Source: Candidatus Hermodarchaeum yapensis
GTDB taxonomy: Archaea; Asgardarchaeota; Hermodarchaeia; Hermodarchaeales; Hermodarchaeaceae
Direction: 5' to 3'
Length of the DNA stretch: 64,000 nt
Assembly: GCA_016840405.1 (NCBI GenBank)
Contig: JAEOSK010000002.1
Location: 1 to 64,000, forward strand
Below the pieces are notes generated by a model. The model saw only the letters and a program-made list of their open reading frames with translations. It was not told where the DNA came from and searched no databases. This document shows positions 12,875 through 32,597 of the stretch, piece after piece. The position numbers were made by a program, and so were the translations under genes. Position 1 is the first letter of the stretch. The number at the start of each line of letters is the position of its first letter.

Positions 12875-14227
12875 CTAATTTGTTGGAAGCGCTAATTTTG
12901 TCCAGTCAACGAAGTCTTCACGTTTCCGGTCAATACGAGTACTGAGCCAGCTAATGAGGTCGTGAACGGTTTTGATTGCTGCGGGATGCATCATCATAAA
13001 GACATCAACACCAGCAAGGAGGAACATGAGTGCTGTGGTGCTTTCCCAGATGGGTCCCCGAAGCTCACGAGGTCCAAGTTCAGGTCTTTTCATCCAGGCC
13101 TCACGGGCTGCCCAAGCATTCGTCGTACCACTGCTTAAGGGGAACTGGAGTTCTTCATCACCAATTATACCTGCAAGGCGCATACGTTCCATGATAGTAA
13201 AGCTGTACTCTGCACCATACCCCAATGCAGCAGTAGTTGGGTCAATGATAATCTGGTCAGGTGTGATGTAATCAAGTAGTCGACGGTTGAGCTCCTTTTG
13301 TTGATTGATGTCAATACTTGTCCAGGAAAGGACAAGTTGGTCATGAGCCTTTGCGGCTTTTGCAACTGGCTCCCACATATCGACCGTAGCCGAAGCTAGG
13401 AGGACCCGTTCGCCCTCGGCAACTTCGGCAGCCAATGATAGGACTTCTGCGTCCCTGGCAGGATCACCTGAAGCACCCACAATAATTGGCACCTTCACTG
13501 CCTGTAAGACGTTTTCTAAGCCTTTCATGGCTTCTTTGGCACTTGTATCCTTGAGGAGGGGATCTGTACTAATCATATGATAGGTGATGAGGTCTGCACC
13601 AAATTTGTCAATGACTAGCCTTGCCCACTCAGCAGGGTCATCCATAACATCATCGTAGTGCATGCGTACAGCTTTCGCAAGCTTGATGCGCATATCAAAG
13701 ACGTCAGCTGCAACTACGGGGGGATGCTTGGGCGGGGCTTGGAAAAGGTTCCATGCTGGACCCTTATGTCCGCCAACAGTGATGGTCTTACTCCGTGATC
13801 CTCCATTACCTTTCGTTGCACCAAGGGTGATTTCACGAATCTGACCCGAATACTCGGTGAGTGGCGCTTTAAAGCGAGCTTTCAGCAGTTCTGCTGGGCG
13901 AGTTGGCACTGGAATAGCAGGTATAGGCATTGTTGATTGACCCGTTGGAAGTTGCACCTGCATTCCTAACGCTGCGAGCATTTGCTGAGCGAATTGTTGT
14001 ACTGCAATAGCGTTTTGGGCAAGAAATTGTCGGGCTTGGTCAGACATGCCTGCTCCAGCGCCAGGTGGTACAGTGACTTCGAGTTCGTCGACATCAATGG
14101 TCATGTCTACCAGTTCGAGTTCCTCAAACTTCCCAAAGAGGGCTTCCAGTGGACCGAGGATTCCCAATTCGGGGTTGTCGGTGGAGACTGTGAGTTCACT
14201 TTTTTCTTTATTCTTCTCAGGCGACAT
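12875..14227 (-). CDS. cdhD: Corrinoid iron-sulfur protein small subunit, CODH/ACS delta
   Basis: 450 residues. CdhD forms, with CdhE, the corrinoid protein that carries the methyl group from tetrahydro(methano)pterin to the A cluster of CdhC. The N-terminal third is acidic and linker-like (MSPEKNKEK start, Pro/Gln-rich 70-115), followed by a TIM-barrel with VGGHKGPAWNLF, VIDKFGADLITYHM, IIVGASGDPARD and IIDPTTAALGYG. Fourth gene of the cdhA-B-C-D operon, 12 bases after cdhC. The gamma subunit gene cdhE, often next to it, is absent. Confidence 0.92.
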   Translation of the reverse strand: MSPEKNKEKSELTVSTDNPELGILGPLEALFGKFEELELVDMTIDVDELEVTVPPGAGAGMSDQARQFLAQNAIAVQQFAQQMLAALGMQVQLPTGQSTMPIPAIPVPTRPAELLKARFKAPLTEYSGQIREITLGATKGNGGSRSKTITVGGHKGPAWNLFQAPPKHPPVVAADVFDMRIKLAKAVRMHYDDVMDDPAEWARLVIDKFGADLITYHMISTDPLLKDTSAKEAMKGLENVLQAVKVPIIVGASGDPARDAEVLSLAAEVAEGERVLLASATVDMWEPVAKAAKAHDQLVLSWTSIDINQQKELNRRLLDYITPDQIIIDPTTAALGYGAEYSFTIMERMRLAGIIGDEELQFPLSSGTTNAWAAREAWMKRPELGPRELRGPIWESTTALMFLLAGVDVFMMMHPAAIKTVHDLISWLSTRIDRKREDFVDWTKLALPTN

Positions 14228-14239
14228 TATTCATCGCCT

Positions 14240-15673
14240 CTACGATTTTTTGCCCTTCTGATCTAGGCGTTTAATAATGACTTTCTCTGCATAAATTTTC
14301 GCGTTCTTAAAGATGATTTGGAATCCAGGACCACCGCCAGTTGCGGGCACCATCGTTGTCATTTGACCGGGCATCATGAAGGGTTGAGTCTGTTGACCTG
14401 CAGGCATGATTTCTTCCTGACGTTCTTCCTCTTCCAATCGCGCGGCAGCACCAGTCTCAACCCAGCGCTCAGCAACTGGGTGATGGTGGTCTTTAAGATA
14501 GGATTTCAATTCATCAATGCTAGATACGTCATTCTCAGTCGGGATAATATCTCGTAAATTCTCGGGCATGAAGTCATAGACCCGATCCTTTATGGCTTTG
14601 GGCAACCAGACAATCCGCTCCCACCCACCATCCACTTGAAGGAATTTTGGAGAGCGCATATATTCAATTGAAACGCCATGAAAACCAGGAATTTGACGTC
14701 CACCAGCTGTGGAATCTGCCATTGTGGAGAATGGAAGTCCATTCACGGCGTTTCCCTTATAGTCACGATGGACAAGTCCAAGACCATCGACTTCTGGGAT
14801 TACAAAGGCAATCGCTTCGAAACATCCACAACTAGTGTGCGGTTTTTCAAATGCACTGTACAAACAGACATCGGTTACTGCGCCTAGAGTTTTTTCTTTG
14901 TATGCCTGATTTACTCCCTCATATTCTCCCTTATATTCGTCAATGGGTGCTCCTTTTTCGATTGCAAATAAGGGTCCCTTTGGGTCCACTCGTGCAGCGG
15001 CGCGCCCGTCAAACCAACTAATTGCACCACAATTTGCATATCGTTGTGCAGTGATTGTGCAACAATGGGTAGGTGCGAAGCTCTGGCAGAGGGTGCAGCC
15101 ATAGAAGACATCAACTTCTTCATCTTTGAGGCCACGGGCACGTGCATCACGTTCGTCATAGCGGATGATGGCTTTATCATACTGTTCCGCGATTTTATCT
15201 GGGTCGGTGATGAAGGTGACCTGGATCTTTTCGATGATGGGAAGTTCGCTTTTATAGAGGCGCTCATAGACCTGACCCATGAGTTTGAAGGTATTGAGCC
15301 CTTTTTGGAAAGATTTCTTGCTAATCCGAATCCAGATGTCGTAGCGCTGGTTGAGGTGCATAACACCTTCCATGAAGTTTGTATATTCGTGAACGTGACG
15401 TTCAAGAACACCTTCTAAATCTTCTTCAACTTCCTTACCGGCGACTTCAATGAGGATACCTAGGGGATGGGCTCCACCTTCTTCGAGGTCTTTAAGGTCA
15501 GGACCAATGATCTCAACTTTGCCATCTTCGATTTCGTTCATCTTTTTGGTGACAACCAATTCGAATTTCTTTTCAATCTTGGGTCCACCAAGTTCAACTT
15601 GCATGTCAGCTTTTCGAATGCGTTCGCCTTCGAAGACGACACCGACAGCTACTGGTAAGTCTTCAAATGACAT
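14240..15673 (-). CDS. cdhC: Acetyl-CoA synthase, CODH/ACS beta subunit
   Basis: 477 residues. CdhC joins CO, a methyl group from the corrinoid protein and CoA into acetyl-CoA at the Ni-Ni-[4Fe-4S] A cluster. All A-cluster cysteines are visible: C193 and C196 in GCTLCQ, C205 in THCC, C282 and C284 in SCGCFE. As in other archaeal CdhC, the bacterial N-terminal domain is missing. The C-terminal tail is Met/Pro/Gln-rich (MMPGQMTTM). Its ATG follows the cdhB stop without a gap, with GGAGGT about ten bases upstream inside cdhB. Confidence 0.95.
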   Translation of the reverse strand: MSFEDLPVAVGVVFEGERIRKADMQVELGGPKIEKKFELVVTKKMNEIEDGKVEIIGPDLKDLEEGGAHPLGILIEVAGKEVEEDLEGVLERHVHEYTNFMEGVMHLNQRYDIWIRISKKSFQKGLNTFKLMGQVYERLYKSELPIIEKIQVTFITDPDKIAEQYDKAIIRYDERDARARGLKDEEVDVFYGCTLCQSFAPTHCCTITAQRYANCGAISWFDGRAAARVDPKGPLFAIEKGAPIDEYKGEYEGVNQAYKEKTLGAVTDVCLYSAFEKPHTSCGCFEAIAFVIPEVDGLGLVHRDYKGNAVNGLPFSTMADSTAGGRQIPGFHGVSIEYMRSPKFLQVDGGWERIVWLPKAIKDRVYDFMPENLRDIIPTENDVSSIDELKSYLKDHHHPVAERWVETGAAARLEEEERQEEIMPAGQQTQPFMMPGQMTTMVPATGGGPGFQIIFKNAKIYAEKVIIKRLDQKGKKS

Positions 15674-16219
15674 TTACTTTGTACCTCCTAAAATAGATAG
15701 GATTTCTTTGAGGGCATCATTCCATTTTTGTTTCTTGAGGTTTGGAAAGCTCCACGTTGCATGAGGTTGGAAATAACGACCGAGAGTAATGGTCTTGATT
15801 TGAGGGGCGAAGTTAATGAGCGCAGACAACATAAGCCATTCCATGTAGTATGGATATCCGAAGGTCATGACAAGGTCATGGGGTCCTTTCTTCGGAGCAA
15901 CCATCCAGTCGGGATCTTGAAGTTTTCCAGCGATTTCCATTACTCCGTGTGAGTAAACATTGTCAAAGTTCTTCTCTTTGAATGCTTTGATGGTGTTTGA
16001 TGTGGCAACGACTGGTATCTTTGCAGCTGTGGAAAGTTCAATGAAGTAGTCAATCATAGATTTTTTCCGCGTCTTTTCTGTTAGTGCGTTTGCACCTACT
16101 ATCAGAAGTGGGTGTTTTGCTTTTTTGAGAAGGGCTCCCACAACTACGGGTTTTTTGAGTTCTTGGGCTTTAGTTGGTCCGCAGACTTCAGCGGTTTGCC
16201 AGGGTTCAGCTCGCATCAT
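15674..16219 (-). CDS. cdhB: CODH/ACS epsilon subunit
   Basis: About 181 residues. CdhB binds tightly to CdhA in the archaeal CO dehydrogenase and has a Rossmann-like fold (LLIVGANAL near the N-terminus, VMTFGYPYYMEW later). I place the start at ATG 16217-16219, one base after the cdhA stop, because GGAGGT at 16230-16235 sits ten bases upstream; earlier GTG/ATG codons would overlap cdhA. The same arrangement recurs at the cdhB-cdhC junction, which suggests coupled translation. Confidence 0.9.
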   Translation of the reverse strand: MMRAEPWQTAEVCGPTKAQELKKPVVVGALLKKAKHPLLIVGANALTEKTRKKSMIDYFIELSTAAKIPVVATSNTIKAFKEKNFDNVYSHGVMEIAGKLQDPDWMVAPKKGPHDLVMTFGYPYYMEWLMLSALINFAPQIKTITLGRYFQPHATWSFPNLKKQKWNDALKEILSILGGTK

Positions 16220-16220
16220 T

Positions 16221-18578
16221 TTACTTGCTACCTCCATTGCCACCGAACACCATTCGTTTCAATAGCGTCGGATCTGGAATGGGTCGTTCTTTCCACTTGT
16301 TTTCCTTCATCTGAGCATGAATTTTGTCTTTAAGAGTGATAGGAATATCTGTTTCTCTCCGAATAAACGTGTGAACATCATCGGGGAAGTAACCTTTGTA
16401 TCTCTCGTGTAGATCGATGTAATGGCTCAGTTTAATTGCTCGACCTCTAGCAGTGTCGTTTGGTCGGATAGCTAATTTGGCAGTTAGTACCATGCATTCC
16501 TCCATGTTTTCTACAGCATAGAACAGGTGTTCGGGACCTGGAGCAATTTGAACTTCGTTCCCTGTTCGAGCATCGTATACCATCCAGTCCTTTGCTCGAT
16601 CAGCGCGACCTAATAGCATTCGACGATATTTAGCCCCGTGTGGACCAACAATAACTGGAACGCCGAGTCGCCAGAAACCAGAAGCAATTGAAGCAGCTTT
16701 CTGTGACATAGCACCCCAAGAGATTCCGACAGCTCCCACTCGATTGTGTATGTAGTCCGCGATTTCTTCGTAGTTTCCACGTAGGTTACGTTTGGCGAAG
16801 ATGCTCGCAATTTTTATGGCTGCACCTGCGATGTGGGGGTTTGACACACAAGATCCAACATTTACAACACCACCGGCATCAAAGTGACCTGAGCGACGTT
16901 CGTAGATACTTTTCCCTTCATCGTCTTTGATAGTGCCCACAGTCATTGCTGCACATCCAGATAATACGATAATGAAGCGACGTTGAGCAAATTCCTCGCA
17001 CATGTCATGGATGGCACGTCCTCCATCGGGGTAGTTGGCACATCCTACATGCGCGATAACACCGGGAATTTCTCCGAAAACAACGGGTTGTCCAACGGCC
17101 CGGATTTCGGTATCTTTGATTGCCCCACGCCCAGTGCGAACTAGGTAGCTCTCATTCATCCAACGGTCTTTAGCAGCGGTTACCATCCAGCTATGGAGAT
17201 CGTATTCATTTGGGCAAGCGGACTCACACCGGGCACAACCGATACATTCATCATAGACATCACCTAGAGGACCGAAATTCGCTTCTTGTGCGGCAAGGAC
17301 CGCTTCCATAATTGGTTGGTCATTTGGACATGCCCGTCGACATTCCGAGCATTGACGACATGCTTGAGCGAGTTCTTGGATTTTCTTTTTACTTGGGAGT
17401 GAGGTCTTACCTTTGCGTTTCGGTTTCACGGCAATAGCTGTTTTCACCACTACTTCGCCAACCTTATTATGGTCACCTATAAACACTCCAGGCACTTTAA
17501 ATGAAACAAGGTCAGCGACGATGTCATCGACATCATCATTTGTGCGGTCTGGTAAACCCATACAGGATTTATCGCAAGTGGCGATTACTGGGGCGTTCAC
17601 TTTCTGAGCATGTTGGGCAATATCGGTACGAATACACTGTTCATCTACGACAACAACGTCAGCTATGCCACTCCTTACAAAGCGGAGCTGCCAGGAAATT
17701 GGACCTACAATTTTGGCTTTAGCATCATGACGTGTTATGTCCCAGGCAGTACAACAAATTCCACTGACATCGAGTTTATTTTGAAGGTTATGTTCCATAG
17801 CGTAGTCAGTGATAGCTGCAGCAGGGACAACATTGTGTCCAATGCACAGGATATTGGCCTTAGACTGATCCATCGAAGCCATACCTGCTTCAACTAGAGG
17901 TGCCTCAGGATCAGATTGAGGAAAGCCCATCGTAGAAATCTGCACCAAATCGGCAATCTCCATTCCTACTTGATCGACCATTCCTGCATGAAAGGCCTTG
18001 GATTCAAAATCTATCCAACTACCTTCCTGTCCTGTATGGACTGCCGAGAGGGTATGAGTTAATTGTGTTTCACAATAGTCGAGAATCGATGAGGCATCAT
18101 CAAGTGTACGTGGTCGAATTCCAGTCACTAATCGAGACACAGGTGCTTCAATATCCACACCTTCTCCCTGTGTCAATTGATATCGCGGACCAAATTCATG
18201 AATCAAGTGATCAACTAGATGTCGAGCATGCGCCAAGTGTGCTGCACACCCAATATTGCAAGCAGCCAACACAATTCGCGCTGACTGCGCCTTAATATCT
18301 AAACCACATGCTCCTCGTTTTCCCCCCGTCAAATCGCATTTTCCGAATGTACAAAGGCAGCATAGTTGACATGCTGGCATGTATGATGGTTCGTACTTTG
18401 TGAGGAGTTTGTGGTCCCAGTCACGAAGAGTTGTGACGCCTGGCATGGGTGTGGGTCCCATAGGCTCGTCCCAATCTTCATCGATGACTTTGCCGATGGT
18501 GACTTCGACGTTTCGGAAGGACCCGAATCCGGTGTCGAGTTTATCGGCTTTGATTCGTGCTCGTTTTTGTTCTGTCAA
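16221..18578 (-). CDS. cdhA: CO dehydrogenase, CODH/ACS alpha subunit
   Basis: 785 residues, the usual length for the archaeal alpha subunit. It interconverts CO2 and CO at a Ni-Fe-S C cluster and passes CO to CdhC. N-terminal cysteines C70, C73/C74, C76, C81 and C91 match the B/D-cluster region. A two-cluster ferredoxin domain unique to archaeal CdhA lies at C407-C417 (CRQCSECRRACPN) and C445-C455 (CIGCARCESACPN). Later Cys motifs (HVGCANY, LSGCAAM, VGSCVSN) include the C-cluster ligands. First gene of the operon; start TTG at 18576-18578 with GGTTGAT upstream. Confidence 0.95.
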   Translation of the reverse strand: MTEQKRARIKADKLDTGFGSFRNVEVTIGKVIDEDWDEPMGPTPMPGVTTLRDWDHKLLTKYEPSYMPACQLCCLCTFGKCDLTGGKRGACGLDIKAQSARIVLAACNIGCAAHLAHARHLVDHLIHEFGPRYQLTQGEGVDIEAPVSRLVTGIRPRTLDDASSILDYCETQLTHTLSAVHTGQEGSWIDFESKAFHAGMVDQVGMEIADLVQISTMGFPQSDPEAPLVEAGMASMDQSKANILCIGHNVVPAAAITDYAMEHNLQNKLDVSGICCTAWDITRHDAKAKIVGPISWQLRFVRSGIADVVVVDEQCIRTDIAQHAQKVNAPVIATCDKSCMGLPDRTNDDVDDIVADLVSFKVPGVFIGDHNKVGEVVVKTAIAVKPKRKGKTSLPSKKKIQELAQACRQCSECRRACPNDQPIMEAVLAAQEANFGPLGDVYDECIGCARCESACPNEYDLHSWMVTAAKDRWMNESYLVRTGRGAIKDTEIRAVGQPVVFGEIPGVIAHVGCANYPDGGRAIHDMCEEFAQRRFIIVLSGCAAMTVGTIKDDEGKSIYERRSGHFDAGGVVNVGSCVSNPHIAGAAIKIASIFAKRNLRGNYEEIADYIHNRVGAVGISWGAMSQKAASIASGFWRLGVPVIVGPHGAKYRRMLLGRADRAKDWMVYDARTGNEVQIAPGPEHLFYAVENMEECMVLTAKLAIRPNDTARGRAIKLSHYIDLHERYKGYFPDDVHTFIRRETDIPITLKDKIHAQMKENKWKERPIPDPTLLKRMVFGGNGGSK

Positions 18579-20795: not shown

Positions 20796-22010
20796 TTACT
20801 CTTCAATGGGTATTTTCTTGCCGTTGATGTAGACTTCGCTTACTTCACTATAGAATTCGAAGGGATGTCCAGTCCAGACTACGATATCGGCATCTTTACC
20901 GGGTTCGAGTGAGCCAACACGATCTTGGAGGTTGAGTATCTCAGCGGGATTAATGGTGACACATTTCAGTGCATCTTCTCGGCTCATCCCATGTTTGATA
21001 GCATACATGGGAAGCAGTGGGAAGTAATTCATCGGTGTCAGCGAGTCTGTCTGTAGGGCTACTTTTACTCCAGCGTCATTGAGGATGACCGCTGTTTTAA
21101 AGCCACGTTCACGGGTTTCAGGCTTGGAAACCCACAACATAGTGGGACCAATCACGGCTGGAACTTTTTTCTTTGCAAGATATTTCGCGATTTTATGACC
21201 TTCAGTGCAATGAATAATGACAAGTCGTAAATTAAATTCCTCAGCAATCCGAATGATAGTGGCAATATCATCCGCACGATGGGAGTGAGCGTGGAAAGGG
21301 ATTTCTCGTTTCAACACCTTCACTACAGTTTCCATTCCTAAGCTTCGCTCTGGCGTTTTCGGAGGTGGATCACCTTTCTTTTTAGCGTGTTTGGATTTCG
21401 TTCCGTAGACTTTCCATGCTTCTAGATAATTCTGGGCATCAGTGAGGGTTTTCCGAATTAACGCAGCAACACCCATGCGCGTTTGGGGCATTCGTTTATT
21501 CTCACTTCCGTGAACCCGTTTCGGATTTTCCCCTAAGGCAATTTTGAGTCCTGACGGAGACAGTACAACCATCTCATCAACGACATTACCAGCAACGGGT
21601 TTGATGACGAAACACTCACCACCGATTACATTACCTGATCCCGGTCCTGTATTGATAGTAGTGACCCCACCACGGATTACTTCTTTGAGTGATTTTTCAA
21701 AGGGATTGAAGCCATCCATCCCACGCATTTCTGGAGTAATGGGCGTTGTCATTTCGTTACCGTCTTGGCCCATAGGTCCAATCGAACCGTCAAAGAGTCC
21801 TTGGTGGCAATGGGCATCGATGAATCCCGGCAGCACATATTGTCCTTCGACGTCAATGGTTTTTGCTTTACTCGGAATTGGGATAGACTTCCCGACCCCG
21901 ACGATTTTTCCTTTATCAAAGAGAACCGTACCTTTTTCGATGCGACCCCGTACGGGGCACAGAATAGTTGCATTAGTAATCGCTCTCAAAGTATTCACCA
22001 CTCGGTACAT
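20796..22010 (-). CDS. Amidohydrolase, imidazolonepropionase/prolidase-like
   Basis: 404 residues of the metal-dependent amidohydrolase superfamily. The two-His metal site is PGFIDAHCHQG, further ligands are HAHSHRAD and IIHCTEGH, and ALQTDS carries the catalytic Asp. The C-terminal GSLEPGKDADIVVWTGHP is the standard end of the family's small beta domain. The closest group by feel is COG1228. Cytosolic; substrate unknown. Convergent with the GYD gene. Confidence 0.85.
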   Translation of the reverse strand: MYRVVNTLRAITNATILCPVRGRIEKGTVLFDKGKIVGVGKSIPIPSKAKTIDVEGQYVLPGFIDAHCHQGLFDGSIGPMGQDGNEMTTPITPEMRGMDGFNPFEKSLKEVIRGGVTTINTGPGSGNVIGGECFVIKPVAGNVVDEMVVLSPSGLKIALGENPKRVHGSENKRMPQTRMGVAALIRKTLTDAQNYLEAWKVYGTKSKHAKKKGDPPPKTPERSLGMETVVKVLKREIPFHAHSHRADDIATIIRIAEEFNLRLVIIHCTEGHKIAKYLAKKKVPAVIGPTMLWVSKPETRERGFKTAVILNDAGVKVALQTDSLTPMNYFPLLPMYAIKHGMSREDALKCVTINPAEILNLQDRVGSLEPGKDADIVVWTGHPFEFYSEVSEVYINGKKIPIEE

Positions 22011-23306: not shown

Positions 23307-24110
23307 TTAGGGATCAGCGTTATTGAGTCTAGCACGGAGCTCTGGGATCAGGGCCCGGATGGCTCGGATTGCTGGTGAATCGTGAGCAAAATCGATTGGG
23401 GCTTTGCCTTTAAGGTTGGCAAGTCGGATGGCTTTATCGAAGGGGATGACAGTCAGTAAGGGGATTTGCAGTTCGTCTAATGTGGACCTGATGGCTTTTT
23501 CATCCATCTCGTCCATGACTTTATTCGCAACACCAAAGACGGTGTCAACACTGATGTCTTGAGCGAGTTTCTTGATTCGGGCAACGGTGGATATCGATGT
23601 TTGTCCTGGCTCAACAACGGTAATGAGTGCATCCATTCCTCGTGATGTTCCGCGTCCGAGGTTTTCAATACCGGCTTCAAGGTCCATAACAAAGGCTTCA
23701 TCGCTTCCCACGATGAGGTGTCGGATTAATGCTTTCAAGAGGGCGCCTGCAGGGCACATGCATCCTGCTCCACCAATTGTAACGGTTCCGGCTACAAGTA
23801 AAGTGACGTTATCCGGCGCAGGAACACCAAATTTCTCTGCAAGATCTGAGACGTGTGGATTTAGTTTGAACATTCCGCCGTAGGTTTTACGGTCCATCCC
23901 CGTACGCTCTTCGACTAGTTCATCATTTTCAGTGAGTGGTATGATTTGTTCTGCTACATCGGGAGAGACTCCTAGCGCTGATGCGAGTGTTGGATTTGGG
24001 TCGGCATCAACGGCTAGGACTTGGATTCCTTCCTTTCCTAAGAATCGTGCGAGAGTTCCTGCTACAAGGGTTTTTCCGACACCGCCTTTTCCGGCAACTG
24101 CTATTTTCAT
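23307..24110 (-). CDS. cooC: CO dehydrogenase maturation ATPase
   Basis: 267 residues from ATG 24108-24110 (GGTGA just upstream; a GTG three codons earlier is less likely). A MinD/SIMIBI ATPase: MKIAVAGKGGVGKT is the deviant Walker A, VLAVDADPNPT is switch I, FVMDLEAGIENLGRG is Walker B. GAGCMCPAGALLKALI holds the Cys-x-Cys pair by which CooC/AcsF dimers bind nickel before inserting it into the CO dehydrogenase C cluster. It is the last gene of the Fe-S protein, fwdB, cooC run, 72 bases after fwdB. Confidence 0.92.
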   Translation of the reverse strand: MKIAVAGKGGVGKTLVAGTLARFLGKEGIQVLAVDADPNPTLASALGVSPDVAEQIIPLTENDELVEERTGMDRKTYGGMFKLNPHVSDLAEKFGVPAPDNVTLLVAGTVTIGGAGCMCPAGALLKALIRHLIVGSDEAFVMDLEAGIENLGRGTSRGMDALITVVEPGQTSISTVARIKKLAQDISVDTVFGVANKVMDEMDEKAIRSTLDELQIPLLTVIPFDKAIRLANLKGKAPIDFAHDSPAIRAIRALIPELRARLNNADP

Positions 24111-24182
24111 CAGGTTCACCCTTTGAGCGTAGGTACTTGTTGAGTGTGCTTAAAGCCTTCGCCATTATCCAGACCGATGATA

Positions 24183-25466
24183 TTACTGGAATTGGGTGAG
24201 AAGGTGTGTTATTACTTGATGTTCAGTAGGAATGTTTTGTGGTGCTTTTGCAAATGGTTTGAGGGGGACTGCTACGCCGTCCATACGATAGACGGTTCCG
24301 TCGGCTTCTACTCCAGTAAGGGCGGTGGGAATAACTACCATAGATTCCCGTGTGGTCATGGTAGGTTGAGTAGATAATGAAATGATTGGAATACTTTGAA
24401 GCGATTTTGCGATGGGTCCTGGAAGAAAGCTGAGCGCATCCCATCCGACAATTAAGGCTGCATCAAACTCATTGTTTCGTAATCCCTCTTGCATTGATGG
24501 ATAGGGTTTTGGTGTCTGTGAAGTGAAATCAACTAAAAACGGAAGCCCAGTTTCTTCTAAGCTCGTTTTAACTACTCCTGCTGAATTACAGAGTGTGACC
24601 ATGGGTAAGATAACACACGGTCGTTTTTTCTTGTCAAGTCGGTTTGCGACCTTGGCTAAAAGGGGAAGTGTGTTCGATTCATGAGGTGCATGTAATAATC
24701 CATTGCCATAGAATATGGCGATATAATCCGCCTCTTTGATCTGCTTGGAAAAACTGAGAAATTCGATTGCGGGGACTCCACCTACCTGTTCTGGTGGGGT
24801 ACCCAGGGTGCCTTTAAGTTCATTGAGTAGGGCGTTGAGGAAGTGTTCATCACCGTTTCTTGGATCAAGAATGAGTTGATGGTTTGCTAGCCGCATCGAT
24901 TCAGATTCACGAATGTCAACAACAGCAATAACGCGGCTTTCACGCCCCTCTGGAATATTAGTACCCTTCGGGAATACCGTATATCTACTTGCATGCCGAT
25001 GGTGACTTTCTGCAGGATTCACTCCCCAATAGACAATGAAATCCGCGAAGTTACGCACATCCTCTAACGTCGCTTTTTCGGCTTCCCCTCCCACAAGCTT
25101 GTAGTCTAAGAGCCGTCCATATTCAAAGCTAGCTGTACTATCAAAAACGCCCTTCAGACGTTTTGCCAAGGTTATACCCAAGCTCGAAACTTCGGAAGGG
25201 CTGTTGGACCACCCCAACAATAATGGTCGTTTACTCTCTGAAAGAATGGATACAGCTTGTTCATATGCCGCAGATAACGATACAGCCTGTTGTTTTCCCG
25301 TTCCCATTTTTACTTGGGGTTTAGTCAGTCGGGTTTTACTTCGAATGGAAGCACAATAAGCGTGGCCCAATGTGCAGAGCCCTAAAGATTGGAGATCAGA
25401 TTTCTTGAGAGAAACAGCTACGTCATCGCACACCACTGAACAACCACAGCAAACCGTATCTTGCAT
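24183..25466 (-). CDS. fwdB: FwdB-like formylmethanofuran dehydrogenase subunit B lacking the metal-ligand cysteine
   Basis: 427 residues, the normal length of FwdB/FmdB, the W/Mo-pterin subunit that reduces CO2 to formate for formyl-methanofuran synthesis. The [4Fe-4S] ligands C6, C9, C13 and C31 are present, as are YWGVNPAESHHRHASRY, VDIRESESMRLANHQ and the C-terminal GVEADGTVYRMDGVAVP. At the active site, where relatives have DNTASVCHGPS with the metal-ligating Cys or Sec and His, this protein has DSTASFEYGRL (residues 109-119), so Cys becomes Glu115 and His becomes Tyr116. It may be inactive, use another ligand, or act on another substrate. ATG with GGAGT upstream; 27 bases after the Fe-S gene. 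Confidence 0.88.
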   Translation of the reverse strand: MQDTVCCGCSVVCDDVAVSLKKSDLQSLGLCTLGHAYCASIRSKTRLTKPQVKMGTGKQQAVSLSAAYEQAVSILSESKRPLLLGWSNSPSEVSSLGITLAKRLKGVFDSTASFEYGRLLDYKLVGGEAEKATLEDVRNFADFIVYWGVNPAESHHRHASRYTVFPKGTNIPEGRESRVIAVVDIRESESMRLANHQLILDPRNGDEHFLNALLNELKGTLGTPPEQVGGVPAIEFLSFSKQIKEADYIAIFYGNGLLHAPHESNTLPLLAKVANRLDKKKRPCVILPMVTLCNSAGVVKTSLEETGLPFLVDFTSQTPKPYPSMQEGLRNNEFDAALIVGWDALSFLPGPIAKSLQSIPIISLSTQPTMTTRESMVVIPTALTGVEADGTVYRMDGVAVPLKPFAKAPQNIPTEHQVITHLLTQFQ

Positions 25467-25493: not shown

Positions 25494-25961
25494 TTACCAT
25501 ATTTCAATGGCTTTCACATAGCAACCTTGCTCACACACCCGACAATTCATGCGTTCAGGGGGAAATCGACGACATTTTTCGAGGTTAATAATTTTTGCAA
25601 TGCCATTTTCAACACGAAACACCGTGTCTTCTGATCGCGCGGCTTTACCTGATGCCGTGTCAGGTTCTACTGTTGCATCGACAGGACACACCACCACGCA
25701 GTTACCACATCCTGTACATTTCGTCTCATCAAGAGCTACGCCTGTCTCCTCCGCAGCCAGAAGTGGAGTGATTAGCTCAGTGAGTTGATTACGCTGATCA
25801 ATGTATTGATCTTCTTCGAAAAGAGGTGTACATTCTTTTAACTCGACTTCTCGCAGTGCTAGACGCGTGGCAAAAGCCATGCAGGTCATCCCACATTTCT
25901 TACAATTAGTTTGGGGAAGAAGCTTGTATATCTGCATAGGAGTGAGTTTTTGATCAGCCAT
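25494..25961 (-). CDS. Fe-S protein: CdhE-type N-domain fused to ferredoxin-like domain
   Basis: 155 residues. The N-terminal half (LTPMQIYKLLPQTNCKKC, then GMTC and a later Cys) matches the single-cluster Fe-S domain found at the N-terminus of the corrinoid protein gamma subunit CdhE/AcsC. The rest is ferredoxin-like: KCTGCGNCVVVCPVDAT, and a final cluster made of KCRRFPPERMNC, RVC and EQGC. It carries no TIM barrel or cobalamin domain, so it is not CdhE itself. First gene of an operon with fwdB and cooC; probably an electron carrier for FwdB. Confidence 0.75.
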   Translation of the reverse strand: MADQKLTPMQIYKLLPQTNCKKCGMTCMAFATRLALREVELKECTPLFEEDQYIDQRNQLTELITPLLAAEETGVALDETKCTGCGNCVVVCPVDATVEPDTASGKAARSEDTVFRVENGIAKIINLEKCRRFPPERMNCRVCEQGCYVKAIEIW

Positions 25962-26131: not shown

Positions 26132-28582
26132 GTGACATCTTTGGCTAAACCAGCAACAAAGAAGGGAACAAAAAGCCAGTCCAAAACCATACGCAAGAAA
26201 CCAGGTAAGAAATTCCCACCCAAAACAGCCTTATTTCTCTGTCACTGTGGATCAAATATCAAAACCATCATAGATATCGATCAATTGAAAACGCATTATG
26301 AGAAACAGCCCAACATCGTGGTTAATGATGACGCTCATTTTTGTATTGAACAGGGCCTGAATCTGATTCGTGATACGATTCGAGAAAACCAAGTTGATTA
26401 TGTGGTGGTGGCTGCCTGTTCACCGCAATTGCATGGCGAGTTGATGAGCCAAACCGTTGAAGAGGCTGGGCTTAACCGGGGGCATCTAGTCATCGCCAAT
26501 ATCCGTGAGCAATGTAGTTGGGTCCATTGGGATAACCCAGAAGCTGCCACTGCTAAGGCTCGATTGATGATTGATGCAGCAATCAAAATGGCTGAACACA
26601 GCCTTCCAATTCATTCTATTGATATACCAATTACGAAACGCGTACTTGTCATTGGTGGAGGAGTTGCAGGCGCTACTTCTGCCATCCAACTTGCTGACGC
26701 GGGATACGAAGTGATACTGGTTGAACAATCAGGATTCTTGGGCGGACATATGGCCAAATGGGATAAACTCTTTCCGAGCCTAGATTGCAGTTTATGCATC
26801 CTCGGACCTCTCCTAACCCGAGTGGCTACGCATCCCAAGATTACGATGCTGACCCTCAGTGAAGTCACCGATATCCAAGGTACACCCGGGGACTATGAAG
26901 TCAAAATCCATCAAGAACCTCGATATGTAGACTTAGAAACCTGTAATGGCTGCAACAAATGCATAGAAATCTGTCCAATCGATGAGCCCAATGAGTATAA
27001 CTATGGGTTAGGCACTCGGAAGGCAATTATCCGACCGTATCCTAGTTCAGTTCCCCTGGCTCCCTATATTGACATGGACGCATGTGTGGGCTGCCAATCC
27101 TGCGTCGGAGTTTGTGAAAAGGAATCGATTCGCTTTGAGGATTCAGACCGGGACCATACTTTCAAAATCGGAGCAATCGTTGTCGCAACGGGATTTCAAC
27201 CCTTCAACCCTGAACACCTTAAAGAATATGGCTATGAGCGCTACTCAGATGTGATTACTGCCCCAGAACTAGAACGACTGTTGAATCCTTCTGGACCTTC
27301 TCAAGGAACAGTCATCCAACCATCAAATGGTGAACAACCAAGAAAAGCTGCTTTTGTGCAATGTGTGGGAAGTCGCGATATTCGAATTAGACGACCCTAT
27401 TGCAGTCGCATTTGCTGTACGTACGCAGTCAAAGAAGCCGTGCAACTAAGACTCGCCCAACCTGACACAGAGGTCTATATCTTCTATACTGACATGCGAA
27501 CCTTTGGAAAGGGATTTGAAGAGCTCTATGAACGTGCCGCACGCGAACATGGGGTAAACTTCATCCGTGGTCGTGTAGCCGAAATTGAAGAAGATCCACA
27601 AACCAAGAAACTGTTGGTTCGAGCTGAAGATACTGAGCTTTGTGAACCAATCGAGTTACCTGTCGATCTCGTTGTGCTCAGTGTGGGAGTCGATCCAGCA
27701 CCCACCAACCCGAAACTAGCAACCATTTTGAATCTTCCATTGGATGAGAATAACTTTTTCCTGGAAAAGCATCCCAAGTTGAATCCTACAGGAACATATT
27801 CTGCAGGCATCTTTCTTGCAGGGAATGCGCAAGGGCCCAAGGATATTGCGGACACGGTTACCCATGCAGGTTTGGCTGCGGCTCAAGTCTCGACATTACT
27901 ACACCGACGAAAAATATCTCTTGAAGTCCACGCTCCAATTCTCAATTCCCAACTGTGTGAAAGTTGTCGACTGTGTGAAAAAACTTGTGATGCAAATGCG
28001 ATATCCTTTGAGGGTTCTGATATTCCTCTCATCGATGAACTCGCCTGTACCGGGTGTGGTGCCTGTGTGGCTGCTTGTCCAACAGGCGCTTTGGATTTAC
28101 CTGGGTTTACTCGACAACAACTAAAGACAGCAGTAGACACTGCGTGTCAGAACAATCCCCTCCAACCTATTGTAATTGGTTTCTTATGCAACTGGTGCGC
28201 CTATGCTGCAGCAGACAGTGCTGGTGTCAATCGACTCCGGTATCCCCCCCAACTCATTCCAATTCGCGTCCCATGCAGTGGTCGTCTTGACCCGCTCCTC
28301 ATTTTGGAAGCTTTCTCTCAAGGGGCGGATGGTGTAGCAATCCTAGGCTGTCACGAACATGATTGCTATTATCGAACTGGAATGACAAAAACCAAAGGCC
28401 GAGTAGAAAATATGCTACCTATACTAAATGAGATGGGAATTAATCCAGACCGACTTTTTCTTGAGGGTACAGCAGCGTCTGAAGGAGGTCGGCTGGTAGA
28501 ACTCGTTTCAGATTTTGTGAAGAAAATCGCAGAGATGGGTCCTTTGGGTGCCGAACTGATAGTCAGCACGAAAAGTCGATAG
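26132..28582 (+). CDS. hdrA: HdrA-MvhD fusion, heterodisulfide reductase-type electron bifurcation subunit
   Basis: 816 residues. After a basic N-tail, an HdrA N-domain (LFLCHCGSNI start, then VVVAACSPQLH) leads to the FAD fold VLVIGGGVAGATSAI and the typical SGFLGGHMAKWDKLFPSLDC. Ferredoxin motifs are CNGCNKCIEICP and CVGCQSCVGVC in the middle, and CESCRLCEKTC and CTGCGACVAACP later. The C-terminal 150 residues (GFLCNWCAYAAADSAG, PCSGRLDPLLI, GCHEHDCYYRTG) are MvhD, the [2Fe-2S] link to hydrogenase or formate dehydrogenase. HdrA splits electron pairs, reducing ferredoxin. Divergent from the fwdB operon. Start GTG; no ATG is available nearby. Confidence 0.92.
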   Translation: MTSLAKPATKKGTKSQSKTIRKKPGKKFPPKTALFLCHCGSNIKTIIDIDQLKTHYEKQPNIVVNDDAHFCIEQGLNLIRDTIRENQVDYVVVAACSPQLHGELMSQTVEEAGLNRGHLVIANIREQCSWVHWDNPEAATAKARLMIDAAIKMAEHSLPIHSIDIPITKRVLVIGGGVAGATSAIQLADAGYEVILVEQSGFLGGHMAKWDKLFPSLDCSLCILGPLLTRVATHPKITMLTLSEVTDIQGTPGDYEVKIHQEPRYVDLETCNGCNKCIEICPIDEPNEYNYGLGTRKAIIRPYPSSVPLAPYIDMDACVGCQSCVGVCEKESIRFEDSDRDHTFKIGAIVVATGFQPFNPEHLKEYGYERYSDVITAPELERLLNPSGPSQGTVIQPSNGEQPRKAAFVQCVGSRDIRIRRPYCSRICCTYAVKEAVQLRLAQPDTEVYIFYTDMRTFGKGFEELYERAAREHGVNFIRGRVAEIEEDPQTKKLLVRAEDTELCEPIELPVDLVVLSVGVDPAPTNPKLATILNLPLDENNFFLEKHPKLNPTGTYSAGIFLAGNAQGPKDIADTVTHAGLAAAQVSTLLHRRKISLEVHAPILNSQLCESCRLCEKTCDANAISFEGSDIPLIDELACTGCGACVAACPTGALDLPGFTRQQLKTAVDTACQNNPLQPIVIGFLCNWCAYAAADSAGVNRLRYPPQLIPIRVPCSGRLDPLLILEAFSQGADGVAILGCHEHDCYYRTGMTKTKGRVENMLPILNEMGINPDRLFLEGTAASEGGRLVELVSDFVKKIAEMGPLGAELIVSTKSR

Positions 28583-28651: not shown

Positions 28652-30343
28652 TTGGAGAGATTGAGGAAGGGTTTAGTCTTAGTTATATCATGCCTTCTTT
28701 TTTCCCTTCTACTCTTAGCTCCACTCTTGGTTATCGCCACTGCACAATCCCCTCAGTCGGACCTGACAATGGGCGATGACGATCTACTTTGGAGCTTCAA
28801 ATTTGGAGCAAACGACAGTCAAGACGCAGCATATTCAATAATCCAGTGTGAAGATGGTGGCTATCTAATCGTAGGCTCATCCCAGCTTGAAGAAACAACT
28901 GATGTGCTAATATTTCGATTAAATGATGCTGGAGAATTGGAATGGAGTGATATCCTAACTCAGGAGGGGACGGAAATCGCCAAAGAGGTCATTGAATGTG
29001 AATCTGGTGGTTACGCAATAATTGGATACAGCCAAAAACAAGGGGCAAATGGAACTCTATTAGAGTACGATGCCCTCCTGATTCGAATTGCCTCAAACGG
29101 GACGATTGTATGGATTCAAACCATTGGGGATAATTCATCACAACAAGCGTATTCTATTGTCGAGTGCCAGGATGGCGGATTTGCTTTTGCTGGCTATACT
29201 CACAGTTCTGAAAGCAATAACTTGGATTTCTGGCTCGTTCGAACATCCAGCGAAGGACAAGCGCTCTGGAACAGAACCTACGATACCATAGGAAATGAGA
29301 TTTGTAACTCATTGGTTGAAAATCATTATGGAGGATTTGTCCTGGTTGGAAGCAAAGAAAATATAGATACAGGAGAACTGGATGGCTGGATCATTTGCAC
29401 CGACAGCATAGGGAATCTTCATTGGGAACGAATTTTTGATATGTCTGGAGATGATGTGTGTAACAAGATTATACGCAAATCATATATCGGATATGTCATT
29501 GTGGGAACAACAGAGAATGTCCCCGAAGGAAGCTTCGACGCTTTTGCCCTAAGTGTTCTAGCAAATGGTAATTTTTCCTGGAACTCAATCCTAGAAGGAC
29601 CCTATGAAGAAGAAGCCTATGACATCACTTCTTGCCAAAATGGTGGATTTGCCATTACAGGATACACTATCGAAGAAACCGAGTTTGGGATGAAAACACA
29701 CCTCTTGTTAGCTCGATTGGAAAGCAACGGAGATGTACAATGGAACAAGCGGTATGGCGGGATGGGTAAAGAAATTGGCTGGTCAATAATTCAATCACCT
29801 TCTCACGATTTTATCATCGCAGGGACAACCAAATCATACAACAGTAATGAACCTGGGATTAATGCACTGATAATACGTGTACCAGATGCTGAAACCGATA
29901 CGAATCCTTTCGGAGAACCTGGTCCCCCGAACTACGATTTAATTGCCTTTGGTGCAATTTTCGGAATTATCATTATTGCAGGGATGTCAGTGATCTATTC
30001 TCGCAGTAAACGAGAAATTACTGAGGTTGAGATTGGCTTCTCAAATCGGCAGCTTGGACAAACATTCTTGATCCCACGTACACTAAAAGAGGTCACATCA
30101 ATTCTTCGAGGAATCGTCCGCTGTCGCAAATGTGGAACAATTCAAAAAAGAAAACAGATAATCTGCAATCATTGTATTGCACTACTGCACAGGTGCTTGT
30201 TTTGCGATAACACAATGGATAATGAGGATTTAGTCATTTTTTGTCCGAGTTGTAGGAATCTTTCTCATGCACATGAAATGATATCTTGGCTGAAAAAAAG
30301 AAAGACTTGTCCAATCTGTGGATTCAAATTAAAAAAAAGATAG
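28652..30343 (+). CDS. Extracellular propeller, one membrane helix and cytosolic RING-like zinc module
   Basis: 563 residues. A signal segment (8-31) is followed by seven imperfect repeats with a GGYAIIGYS-like core (VGSS, IGYS, AGYT, VGSK, VGTT, TGYT, AGTT variants), suggesting a seven-bladed propeller outside the cell. One helix at about 430-449 is followed by basic SRSKR. The cytosolic end has two zinc units: CRKC/CNHC (491-508) and CLFC, CPSC, HAH, CPIC (515-556). The last resembles prokaryotic RING-like domains, including the SWLKKRKTCPIC helix and knuckle. Start TTG at 28652 is uncertain. It lies between hdrA and the polyferredoxin gene but has no obvious link to them. Confidence 0.75.
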   Translation: MERLRKGLVLVISCLLFSLLLLAPLLVIATAQSPQSDLTMGDDDLLWSFKFGANDSQDAAYSIIQCEDGGYLIVGSSQLEETTDVLIFRLNDAGELEWSDILTQEGTEIAKEVIECESGGYAIIGYSQKQGANGTLLEYDALLIRIASNGTIVWIQTIGDNSSQQAYSIVECQDGGFAFAGYTHSSESNNLDFWLVRTSSEGQALWNRTYDTIGNEICNSLVENHYGGFVLVGSKENIDTGELDGWIICTDSIGNLHWERIFDMSGDDVCNKIIRKSYIGYVIVGTTENVPEGSFDAFALSVLANGNFSWNSILEGPYEEEAYDITSCQNGGFAITGYTIEETEFGMKTHLLLARLESNGDVQWNKRYGGMGKEIGWSIIQSPSHDFIIAGTTKSYNSNEPGINALIIRVPDAETDTNPFGEPGPPNYDLIAFGAIFGIIIIAGMSVIYSRSKREITEVEIGFSNRQLGQTFLIPRTLKEVTSILRGIVRCRKCGTIQKRKQIICNHCIALLHRCLFCDNTMDNEDLVIFCPSCRNLSHAHEMISWLKKRKTCPICGFKLKKR

Positions 30344-30457: not shown

Positions 30458-31918
30458 ATGACAAAAACGCACAGGGATCGAATCACCGTAGGCGAGCGCC
30501 CAAAGGTTACGAGTGAGATTCTCAACGATACCAATATCCAGTACAATTGGAAAACTTCGTTACTTAATAAGAACCTAAAATATGACCTAACTCGGTGTGT
30601 TGGCTGTAGTCTTTGTATTCCCTGTCCGTGGGATGCTATCGAATTGGGTCCAGTACAAGAAGTTGCTGCTGGTCGAATGGAAGGCGCCCCCCTCGTCCTC
30701 ATTGACGAAGACAAATGCACGTTTTGTGGATTGTGTGATTCAGCGTGCCTTTTCAACGCCATAGAAGCCCGGTTTGATGATATCCCTGCTGACGTTAAAT
30801 ATGCTCGATTAAAAGGCAAACATGAACTCGACGAAGACAAATGTGCGCCGTGTCTGCTATGTGCAAAGATTTGTCCACGCGAAGCAATCTCGGTTGAGCT
30901 CAAGGTTACCCCGAAAACTGGGTTAGTCAAATATCAAGACCCGAAAGCCGCTCAATGGGTGGCGAAAGGCAAACCCGAGGCCACCGGCTCTATCAAAATT
31001 GATGAAGACAAATGCACATGGTGCGGCCTGTGTGAATTACTATGCCCCGAATGCATTACCATTTACTGGCACGAAGAAAAACCCCAACCTCCCGATTTCA
31101 AACCCGCAGTGAGTATTCGGGTTGATACCACCCACTGTGATTATTGTGGACTCTGTGAAACCATCTGTCCCTCCGATGCTGTACGTGTGACTTGCGACAA
31201 ATCCCCCCCTCGCCAAATCAAGGACCCGAAAGTTGAAGGCACCATGACCATTGATGATGGCTTGTGTGTCGACTGCACACTCTGCGCCCTGAAATGTCCC
31301 TATGAAGCCCTAGATGTTACTCTTCCACTAACTGGGGATGTTGAAATCCATAATTTAGAGAAATGTGACCCGACAGGCTGTGTCAATTGTTTCAACATCT
31401 GTCCCACCAAAGCCATCTATGCAACGGGAGACAAAGACAAAATCGCCATCAACAAAGAGATATGTGTCTTCTGCGGCGCGTGCGAAAACGCGTGCCCTGA
31501 ACAAGTCCTCAAAGTCACCCGCGATAGTTACCAACTCTCCCAAATCGAAGAAGCCCGAGGTTGGGAACGGGGTCGTGCTCTACACTTTTATGATCAGCTA
31601 GTTGGACGTGAAGCACCTCAAAATAACATTTATGAACGTGTGATTAAAGCTTCCCCGGTTAAACCTTCAGTGCCTATCCAAACCAAATCTGAAGATTGGT
31701 CTGAAAGCAAACTTAATCGCCGACTAGCCCAAGACCGAGTCCGGAAAGTTCAGGAGTTTATCAAAAAGAATTGGCGATTACGATTGCTCTTTGAGAGAGG
31801 TCGTGTTGGTCCTCTCTTCACGGCTCTTCGTAAAGAGACTCTTAAGAAAACTAGTATACAAGCACCGAGTGAATCGAGGTCCGAACCGAAGAAAAACTCT
31901 TCAAAAAAGTCTCAATGA
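30458..31918 (+). CDS. fwdF: Polyferredoxin with eight 4Fe-4S motifs, FwdF-like
   Basis: 486 residues. Eight cluster motifs can be counted: CVGCSLCIPC, CTFCGLCDSAC, CAPCLLCAKIC, CTWCGLCELLC, CDYCGLCETIC, CVDCTLCALKC, CDPTGCVNCFNIC (with an insertion) and CVFCGACENAC, most followed by Pro. FwdF of methanogens wires the FwdB active sites with eight clusters, and the size here fits. The last 120 residues are basic and cluster-free, which is unusual for the family. It is convergent with fwdD and lies 4.5 kb from fwdB, so assignment to the Fwd complex is inference. Confidence 0.8.
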   Translation: MTKTHRDRITVGERPKVTSEILNDTNIQYNWKTSLLNKNLKYDLTRCVGCSLCIPCPWDAIELGPVQEVAAGRMEGAPLVLIDEDKCTFCGLCDSACLFNAIEARFDDIPADVKYARLKGKHELDEDKCAPCLLCAKICPREAISVELKVTPKTGLVKYQDPKAAQWVAKGKPEATGSIKIDEDKCTWCGLCELLCPECITIYWHEEKPQPPDFKPAVSIRVDTTHCDYCGLCETICPSDAVRVTCDKSPPRQIKDPKVEGTMTIDDGLCVDCTLCALKCPYEALDVTLPLTGDVEIHNLEKCDPTGCVNCFNICPTKAIYATGDKDKIAINKEICVFCGACENACPEQVLKVTRDSYQLSQIEEARGWERGRALHFYDQLVGREAPQNNIYERVIKASPVKPSVPIQTKSEDWSESKLNRRLAQDRVRKVQEFIKKNWRLRLLFERGRVGPLFTALRKETLKKTSIQAPSESRSEPKKNSSKKSQ

Positions 31919-31952: not shown

Positions 31953-32330
31953 TTATGGAAGATCGGTTGAGGATGTTATTGGCCCTTTACTCGGTTTGAT
32001 AATCACTTCGGTTCCCTGGCTAGGAACCATGGACTCAATGACTGCATAAGCCCAGGGACTCGGTTGCATCAGAGCAATTCCTTCGGGTTGATTTTCCTTT
32101 AGCTGAGTTCTCACAATGACATTTCCTACCTTTGAGCTAACTTCAATGAAATTGCCCTCTTTGATACCTAATCGTTGTGCATCTCGAACTGAAATCGTAA
32201 TACGGGCCGCCACTTTTTCATATTCTTTGGATAGGGTACCTTGACCAGCTTGGACTTCGTCAACTTCAAGTGTACGCGCAAGTAATAATCGTACTTCGAG
32301 CTGTGGGTAGAGAAAATCACGTAACGCCAT
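31953..32330 (-). CDS. fwdD: FwdD/FmdD-type molybdopterin dinucleotide-binding protein
   Basis: About 125 residues. The double-psi beta-barrel pattern LSKEYEKVAARITISVRDAQ, LGIKEGNFIEVSSKVG and GIALMQPSPWAYAVI matches FwdD, the small subunit that binds the pterin cofactor with FwdB. Relatives show GPWAN where this has SPWAY. The ATG at 32328-32330 is used; a GTG lies one codon earlier. FwdA (hydrolase) and FwdC are absent from the window, so only part of the complex is visible here. Confidence 0.8.
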   Translation of the reverse strand: MALRDFLYPQLEVRLLLARTLEVDEVQAGQGTLSKEYEKVAARITISVRDAQRLGIKEGNFIEVSSKVGNVIVRTQLKENQPEGIALMQPSPWAYAVIESMVPSQGTEVIIKPSKGPITSSTDLP

Positions 32331-32597
32331 CACTTGTCACACACCGAGTATATGGTACTATGCCTTCATATTTCTTATTTTTTGGCATGGGATAAAATTT
32401 GAAAATAATAGAGCACCCTGTTGATGTTCGAATATCAGCTAAGATAACGGTACTAAGTTTCAAGAAGAGTAAGCGCTATTCCGAGAAAAAAGTTCAGTAA
32501 GGCTAAGTATTGTGTGTAAAGAAGCATCGATTATAGATTTTGCCAATAAAATAAATTGAAGTACGAATTCGAAAAAAGGGAGAATCACAGATTTTAA
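32331..32597. other. AT-rich intergenic region containing repeat copy A
   Basis: No gene. Positions 32368-32506 hold a copy of an interspersed repeat also found at 33834-33975. Confidence 0.6.
32368..32506. repeat. Interspersed repeat, copy A (about 140 bases)
   Basis: Begins ATATTTCTTATTTTTTG, contains GAAAATAATAGAG, GTTCGAATATCAG and AGAGTAAGCGCTATTC, and ends CAGTAAGGCT. It is roughly 80 percent identical by eye to the copy at 33834-33975. Confidence 0.7.

Follow-up and report, generated by a model that had tools for sequence, protein, structure and literature searches.

A FwdB paralogue lacking catalytic residues, and its CdhE-FwdG fusion partner, beside CODH/ACS genes in Asgard archaea and other archaeal lineages

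Cofactor-less relatives of FwdB, the subunit that in M. wolfeii ligates W/Mo through Cys118, are already known. One instance of the FDH/FwdB fold without pterin is NuoG of complex I, which forms part of an electron-transfer arm, as we propose below for the archaeal protein that we term FwdB2; NuoG differs from it in its independent lineage, its membrane-complex context and its extra N-terminal clusters. In Fwd itself the metallopterin is located at the FwdB/FwdD interface and FwdFG is the electron-donating module (PMC11656701), with a chain of clusters running through FwdB, FwdG and FwdI in one such enzyme (PMC11493965). FhcB of the bacterial formyltransferase/hydrolase complex (PDB: 6s6y) is a FwdB homologue of about 360 aa without the ligand cysteine, the cofactor or a FwdD partner, and scaffolds the hydrolase and transferase subunits; its cofactor loss has been ascribed to the absent D subunit and loop remodelling (PMC11656701). 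FwdB-family matches without the required cysteine are also mentioned, with no further analysis in the passages concerned, in PMC10100899. The Molybdop proteins of type II HdrA clusters in ANME-2/3 and Methanosarcina are likewise MopB proteins without Cys118 that occur with HdrA and MvhD; they form a clade close to FdhG and FhcB and pair with FdhB and HdrBC (PMC12054007). Finally, Methanospirillum hungatei possesses an Hdr-Fmd/Fwd supercomplex (PDB: 7bkb) in which an inserted ferredoxin domain of HdrA is the FmdF binding site (PMC12350162), and the ACDS zeta subunit and FwdI of Ca. Ethanoperedens show CODH/ACS and Fwd to share one kind of electron module, an F420 reductase (PMC11493965).

The locus described here lies in a 64,000-nucleotide stretch of Candidatus Hermodarchaeum yapensis (the window) and resembles each of these systems in part. 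FwdB2 is like FwdB/FmdB (PDB: 5t5i_B, 8rja_B) in its whole fold, its N-terminal [4Fe-4S] site, its score above the TIGR03129 cut-off and its companion FwdD, FwdF and FwdG homologues, but it is without Cys118, His119, Arg288 and His290, its FwdD has lost its motifs, its FwdG is fused to a CdhE domain, and neither FwdC nor, as a rule, FwdA lies beside the Hermodarchaeal and Thorarchaeal copies. Unlike FhcB it keeps the Fe-S domain, is accompanied by a FwdD paralogue (FwdD2) and lies beside HdrA, FwdF, the FwdG fusion and CODH/ACS genes; unlike the Molybdop proteins it groups with FwdB, and its partners are FwdF, FwdD2, the FwdG fusion and CODH/ACS. As in the Hdr-Fmd/Fwd supercomplex, homologues of HdrA, FwdF, FwdG, FwdB and FwdD occur in one unit, here as genes only, whereas the CO2-reducing site is missing, the linkage is to CODH/ACS in place of FwdA/FwdC, and the window holds no HdrBC. 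Where Ethanoperedens uses an F420 reductase, the corresponding module would here be HdrA-FwdF with a fused adaptor. In the literature searched, mostly open-access papers, we found no description of the FwdB2 family and module, the fusion partner or their tie to CODH/ACS.

Catalytic residues and relatives of FwdB2

The features that bear on catalysis are:

24183..25466, minus strand: FwdB2, a FwdB paralogue of 427 aa (TIGR03129, 339 bits against a curated cut-off of 327.8; direct alignments; AlphaFold2 model)
25122..25124, minus strand: codon of Glu115 (GAA), aligned with the W/Mo ligand Cys118 of M. wolfeii FwdB
24597..24599, minus strand: codon of Val290, aligned with the active-site Arg288
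31953..32333, minus strand: FwdD2, a FwdD paralogue that has lost the TGRT..QG and STGMP..KG motifs

Residues 109-119 of the window protein read DSTASFEYGRL (codons GAT AGT ACA GCT AGC TTT GAA TAT GGA CGG CTC). The first-pass annotation had held that the metal-binding cysteine is replaced here by glutamate and the following histidine by tyrosine, and direct alignments to the FwdB chains 5t5i_B and 8rja_B bear this out, placing Glu115 opposite Cys118 and Tyr116 opposite His119, a pairing repeated in an alignment of 107 sequences. Alignment further shows Arg288 replaced by Val290 and His290 by Leu292. The [4Fe-4S] ligands Cys6, Cys9, Cys13 and Cys31, the NP...HRH motif and the C-terminal domain are retained in the window protein, as the same annotation had stated. 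AlphaFold2 predicts the fold with confidence (pLDDT 93.2), the model superimposing on FwdB structures with TM-scores of 0.91-0.94; several Hermodarchaeal relatives score below the TIGR03129 cut-off. The alignment places no second conserved cysteine at the metal site, the only conserved cysteines being the Fe-S ligands: a cysteine near position 293 in one genus is serine in another, and selenocysteine was discarded since no TGA stands at the ligand site.

Loss of several catalytic residues could in principle reflect a pseudogene or an assembly artefact, an explanation to which we attach practically negligible probability. A cysteine codon is three substitutions away from GAA, and GAA or GAG also stands at this site in six further Hermodarchaeota MAGs, which rules out an assembly error; the E-Y-G triplet is found in all seven Hermodarchaeal copies, which are 54-68% identical to that of the window. 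Moreover, the 427-aa frame is intact, the predicted fold is confident and the gene order is conserved, and an omega of 0.14, from the genes of two close relatives, points to purifying selection, looser than that on canonical FwdB (0.05); the fusion described below gave 0.07. With seven concordant genomes and this omega, both error and pseudogene were rejected.

To place the protein we collected 56 nearly full-length non-canonical sequences and 51 with the canonical Cys-His-Arg from Asgard genomes and GTDB contigs, and built a tree with columns 118, 119 and 288 masked. Canonical FwdB forms one side of a single branch (bootstrap 100, SH-aLRT 98), with the window protein outside it; "FwdB2" is our label for the other, non-canonical side and implies no single root. 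A tree of homologues had been suggested for the glutamate-bearing copies, and the Hermodarchaeal copies, which carry this residue, indeed form one clade, sister to a single clade of Thorarchaeal copies with glycine at the ligand position (100/99). FwdB2 ranges over Asgard archaea, Bathyarchaeota and Nezhaarchaeota. Arg288 is missing from every member, and the four Fe-S cysteines are invariant in 56/56. Cys118, His119 and Arg288 are all replaced in 7/7 Hermodarchaeal and 18/18 Thorarchaeal copies, most Lokiarchaeal copies read C-Q-G, and Cys118 is retained in those of Bathyarchaeota, Baldrarchaeota and Nezhaarchaeota. This graded series, with Arg288 lost throughout and Cys and His in some lineages, offers a good case of the passage from an enzyme to a non-catalytic subunit. 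Thr, Tyr and Gln stand at the ligand position in the FwdB2 copies L194, L195 and L064, from further Asgard families; these are probably independent losses.

The question raised earlier, whether the genome has a second, canonical fwdB, was answered positively: contig C42 encodes a FwdB with Cys, His and Arg in place (DNTSSVCHGPG, PLRGHF) together with fwdD, fwdA and fwdC. A canonical FwdB is also present in the five further FwdB2 genomes tested, so FwdB2 is a second copy. Planctomycete matches were considered as cofactor-less relatives and rejected; they carry Cys or UGA together with His119/Arg288 and group with canonical FwdB, not with FwdB2, in the tree. As a separate observation, in 14 of 17 FwdB genes checked from Planctomycetes and Acidobacteria the very position of Cys118 is occupied by an in-frame TGA (DSHTSL*HGPTE; GTDB contigs L126, L128, L131, L135, L138, L139, L141, L143, L150, L151, L166, L171, L172 and L179), which probably encodes selenocysteine.

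The genome's canonical FwdD retains the motifs TGRT..QG and STGMP..KG, both of which are missing from the window FwdD2 and from its Thorarchaeal and Lokiarchaeal relatives. Taken together with the residue losses in FwdB2, this makes a bound bis-MGD unlikely, and from the sequences FwdB2 most likely no longer reduces CO2 and carries no W/Mo-bisMGD. The WGxNP, VDxRxT and GxD segments, which we take to be P-MGD contacts in the superfamily, are retained, and one MGD might therefore still bind. The first-pass annotation had offered two explanations for the glutamate, a non-canonical ligand or a repurposed subunit. The former would make FwdB2 an active W/Mo enzyme acting on a new substrate, with a glutamate ligand in Hermodarchaeota and no protein ligand in Thorarchaeota. 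Asp and Ser metal ligands do occur in this superfamily, the presumed P-MGD segments persist, the omega is low, and E-Y-G is invariant among the seven divergent Hermodarchaeal copies, although this last is unexceptional since 138 of the 427 positions are invariant there. Set against these points, His119, Arg288, Gly289 and mostly His290 were lost together with the FwdD2 motifs, and, depending on lineage, Glu, Gly, Thr, Tyr or Gln stands at the ligand position, a drift that argues against glutamate as a purposeful ligand. We therefore consider an active enzyme very improbable, and it is the repurposed subunit that is favored by the joint loss of the catalytic residues and FwdD motifs.

The CdhE-FwdG fusion and the gene neighborhood

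The genes surrounding fwdB2 in the window are:

25494..25961, minus strand: three-cluster Fe-S protein of 155 aa, a CdhE-N::FwdG fusion (HMM, PDB sequence and fold searches)
23307..24119, minus strand: CooC-type ATPase for CODH nickel insertion, with a C-x-C motif (best PDB match CooC 3kje, E = 2.4e-42)
26132..28582, plus strand: HdrA2 with a fused MvhD/FlpD domain (NF040770, E = 9.5e-276)
30458..31918, plus strand: FwdF-like polyferredoxin (NF042909, E = 2.1e-64)
16221..18578, minus strand: CdhA, CODH/ACS alpha (TIGR00314, 1118.5 bits)
15674..16243, minus strand: CdhB, CODH/ACS epsilon (TIGR00315)
14240..15673, minus strand: CdhC, CODH/ACS beta (TIGR00316)
12875..14227, minus strand: CdhD, CODH/ACS delta (TIGR00381)

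The Fe-S protein, encoded 27 bp upstream of fwdB2, joins two parts: residues ~5-72 correspond to the [4Fe-4S] domain at the N-terminus of CdhE, the CFeSP large subunit, and residues ~76-155 to FwdG. An HMM search recovered the CdhE part (NF003195, E = 1.9e-18, residues 5-76), which is 49% identical to CdhE, and a PDB sequence search matched the FwdG part to 9sfi_U (E = 2e-12) and 5t5i_G (E = 5.8e-9) and also recovered CFeSP (9fzy, 2h9a). A fold search with the predicted model likewise placed 5t5i_G first, followed with weaker E-values by CFeSP N-terminal domains (4c1n, 2ycl, 9fzy). None of the 12 cysteines varies among 24 relatives that span Asgard archaea to Bathyarchaeota. The fusion is not a piece split off from CdhE, since a full-length CdhE with its own N-terminal domain is encoded on contig C54 of the genome. 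It adjoins 51 of 52 FwdB2 genes and none of the 18 canonical fwdB genes with adequate flanks.

The gene for CooC lies 63 bp downstream of fwdB2, hdrA diverges from this FeS-fwdB2-cooC operon across a gap of 170 bp, and the FwdD2 gene lies beyond that for FwdF as viewed from fwdB2. The resulting set of HdrA, FwdF, FwdG, FwdB and FwdD homologues is found in one locus in the window and in Thorarchaeota, Bathyarchaeota, Nezhaarchaeota and Baldrarchaeota; Thorarchaeota, Bathyarchaeota and a Thermoproteota MAG share the arrangement seen in the window, while the orientation is changed in Nezhaarchaeota and Baldrarchaeota. A Thermoproteota MAG has the module next to cdhABC, Baldrarchaeota have it close to cooC-cdhA, and the Thorarchaeal operon runs FeS-FwdB2-CooC-CdhA-B-C-D-E. 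Within 9 kb of fwdB2 in 23 Hermodarchaeal and Thorarchaeal loci, some on contigs that end sooner, we recovered HdrA in 22, CooC in 21, FwdF in 18 and CdhA/C in 18, and no FwdA or FwdC homologue within this distance of the Hermodarchaeal genes. Among Thorarchaeota, 17 of the 20 FwdB2-bearing genomes have CdhC, as against 0 of ~21 that are without FwdB2, many of the latter retaining canonical FwdB (Fisher p = 4e-9 to 4e-8 by the negatives counted, a value inflated by shared descent); neither this co-occurrence nor the gene linkage is independent of the other or of shared descent. The tie to the carbonyl branch, earlier drawn from CooC adjacency, is thus made stronger by the Thorarchaeal operons and the CdhE-domain partner. 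The link is not universal in the family, as Cys118 is still present in Lokiarchaeal and some other copies, which are not found close to cdh genes.

Several smaller observations concern these genes. The window FwdF is the only close FwdF found in the genome, none having been recovered for the canonical Fwd, which it might therefore also serve. HdrBC is not encoded beside the window HdrA; the window has no HdrB match, with HdrB copies on contigs C77, C58 and C57, and the 2.7-Mb genome has six HdrA-like genes (contigs C39, C58, C77, C42 and C73). A window amidohydrolase (20796-22010) was considered as FwdA without support, FwdA being on C42. A 563-aa repeat protein with a Cys-rich C-terminal tail (28652-30343, plus strand) separates hdrA from fwdF in some Hermodarchaeota only (the window and L056), and a relative of 2,4-diaminopentanoate dehydrogenase, below its family cut-off, lies directly downstream of cdhD (11764-12801, minus strand). 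In a Lokiarchaea-like family (f2, L034-L050) the fusion, FwdB2 (C-Q-G or C-H-G, Arg288 lost), FwdD2 and a FwdA paralogue (FwdA2) form an operon; the charged residues and histidines that never vary in canonical FwdA persist in FwdA2, the metal ligands among them, and this four-gene operon possibly encodes a formyl-hydrolysing or otherwise altered Fwd.

The proximity of cooC raises the possibility that the fusion, FwdB2 and CooC take part in CODH/ACS maturation, supplying electrons or docking in nickel insertion or reductive activation. This accords with the adjacency of fwdB2 and cooC in both Hermodarchaeota and Thorarchaeota and with the high count of CooC within 9 kb. Yet the FeS-FwdB2 pair has no adjacent cooC in Bathyarchaeota, Thermoproteota, Nezhaarchaeota and most Lokiarchaeota loci, and the more constant partners, HdrA and FwdF, are not maturation proteins; we hence regard a maturation role as quite unlikely.

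A candidate electron route to CODH/ACS

We lean, by a little, towards the view that FwdB2 and FwdD2 form a cofactor-less core with a part in coupling CODH/ACS to an electron wire made up of HdrA and FwdF. By analogy to the passage of electrons through FwdF, FwdG and FwdB in Fwd, we propose that the core, which retains its [4Fe-4S] cluster and presumably the docking surfaces for FwdG and FwdF, would hold the fusion so that its FwdG half takes the place of FwdG in Fwd and its CdhE-N half offers a CFeSP-type [4Fe-4S] domain to CODH/ACS. The assembly HdrA(MvhD)-FwdF-[FwdG::CdhE-N]-FwdB2/FwdD2 would then act like the methanogen Hdr-Fwd supercomplex, with CODH/ACS as its outlet. Electrons bifurcated at HdrA, or confurcated in the reverse direction, would pass through FwdF to the fusion, and from there would serve either CO2/CO interconversion at CODH or the reactivation of Co(I) at the corrinoid protein.

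FwdB2 and FwdD2 might instead be purely structural, in the manner of FhcB, with no part in electron transfer, for instance as pseudo-subunits assisting assembly of the canonical FwdABCD or, in Lokiarchaeota, of FwdA2. FhcB is an established cofactor-less FwdB homologue with a scaffold role (PMC10100899), a structural role has been proposed for the non-catalytic Molybdop proteins of HdrA clusters (PMC12054007), canonical FwdB is present in the FwdB2 genomes checked, and the Lokiarchaeal FwdB2 adjoins a FwdA2 with conserved metal-site residues. A pure scaffold would, however, have no need of the four FwdB2 and 12 fusion Fe-S cysteines that are invariant; further, the canonical fwd genes lie elsewhere in Hermodarchaeal genomes, and the CODH-less Thorarchaea keep canonical FwdB yet are without FwdB2. 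We judge a scaffold alone to be unlikely.

A broader form of the electron-wiring proposal, which we advance tentatively and with rather less than even confidence, is that Asgard archaea and several Thermoproteota-related lineages possess a dedicated supercomplex hard-wiring the flavin-based electron bifurcation of HdrA to CODH/ACS, by way of the polyferredoxin and the CdhE-domain::FwdG fusion, and built on a dead Fwd core. If this is so, the archaeal Wood-Ljungdahl pathway would possess, for its carbonyl branch, a separate equivalent of the Hdr-Fwd supercomplex, and the reduction of CO2 to CO would not rely solely on free ferredoxin, a direct and testable answer to how low-potential electrons are supplied for this step in Asgard archaea and Bathyarchaeota. 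On the practical side, since some FwdB2 pass the curated cut-off without an active site, calling the methyl branch of the Wood-Ljungdahl pathway from fwdB only may mislead, and fwdB annotations in Asgard archaea and Bathyarchaeota are unreliable. The window also encodes, at 51321-52655 on the plus strand, a RuBisCO-like protein whose matches to RuBisCO, MtnW and OiaX models all stay under the respective cut-off.
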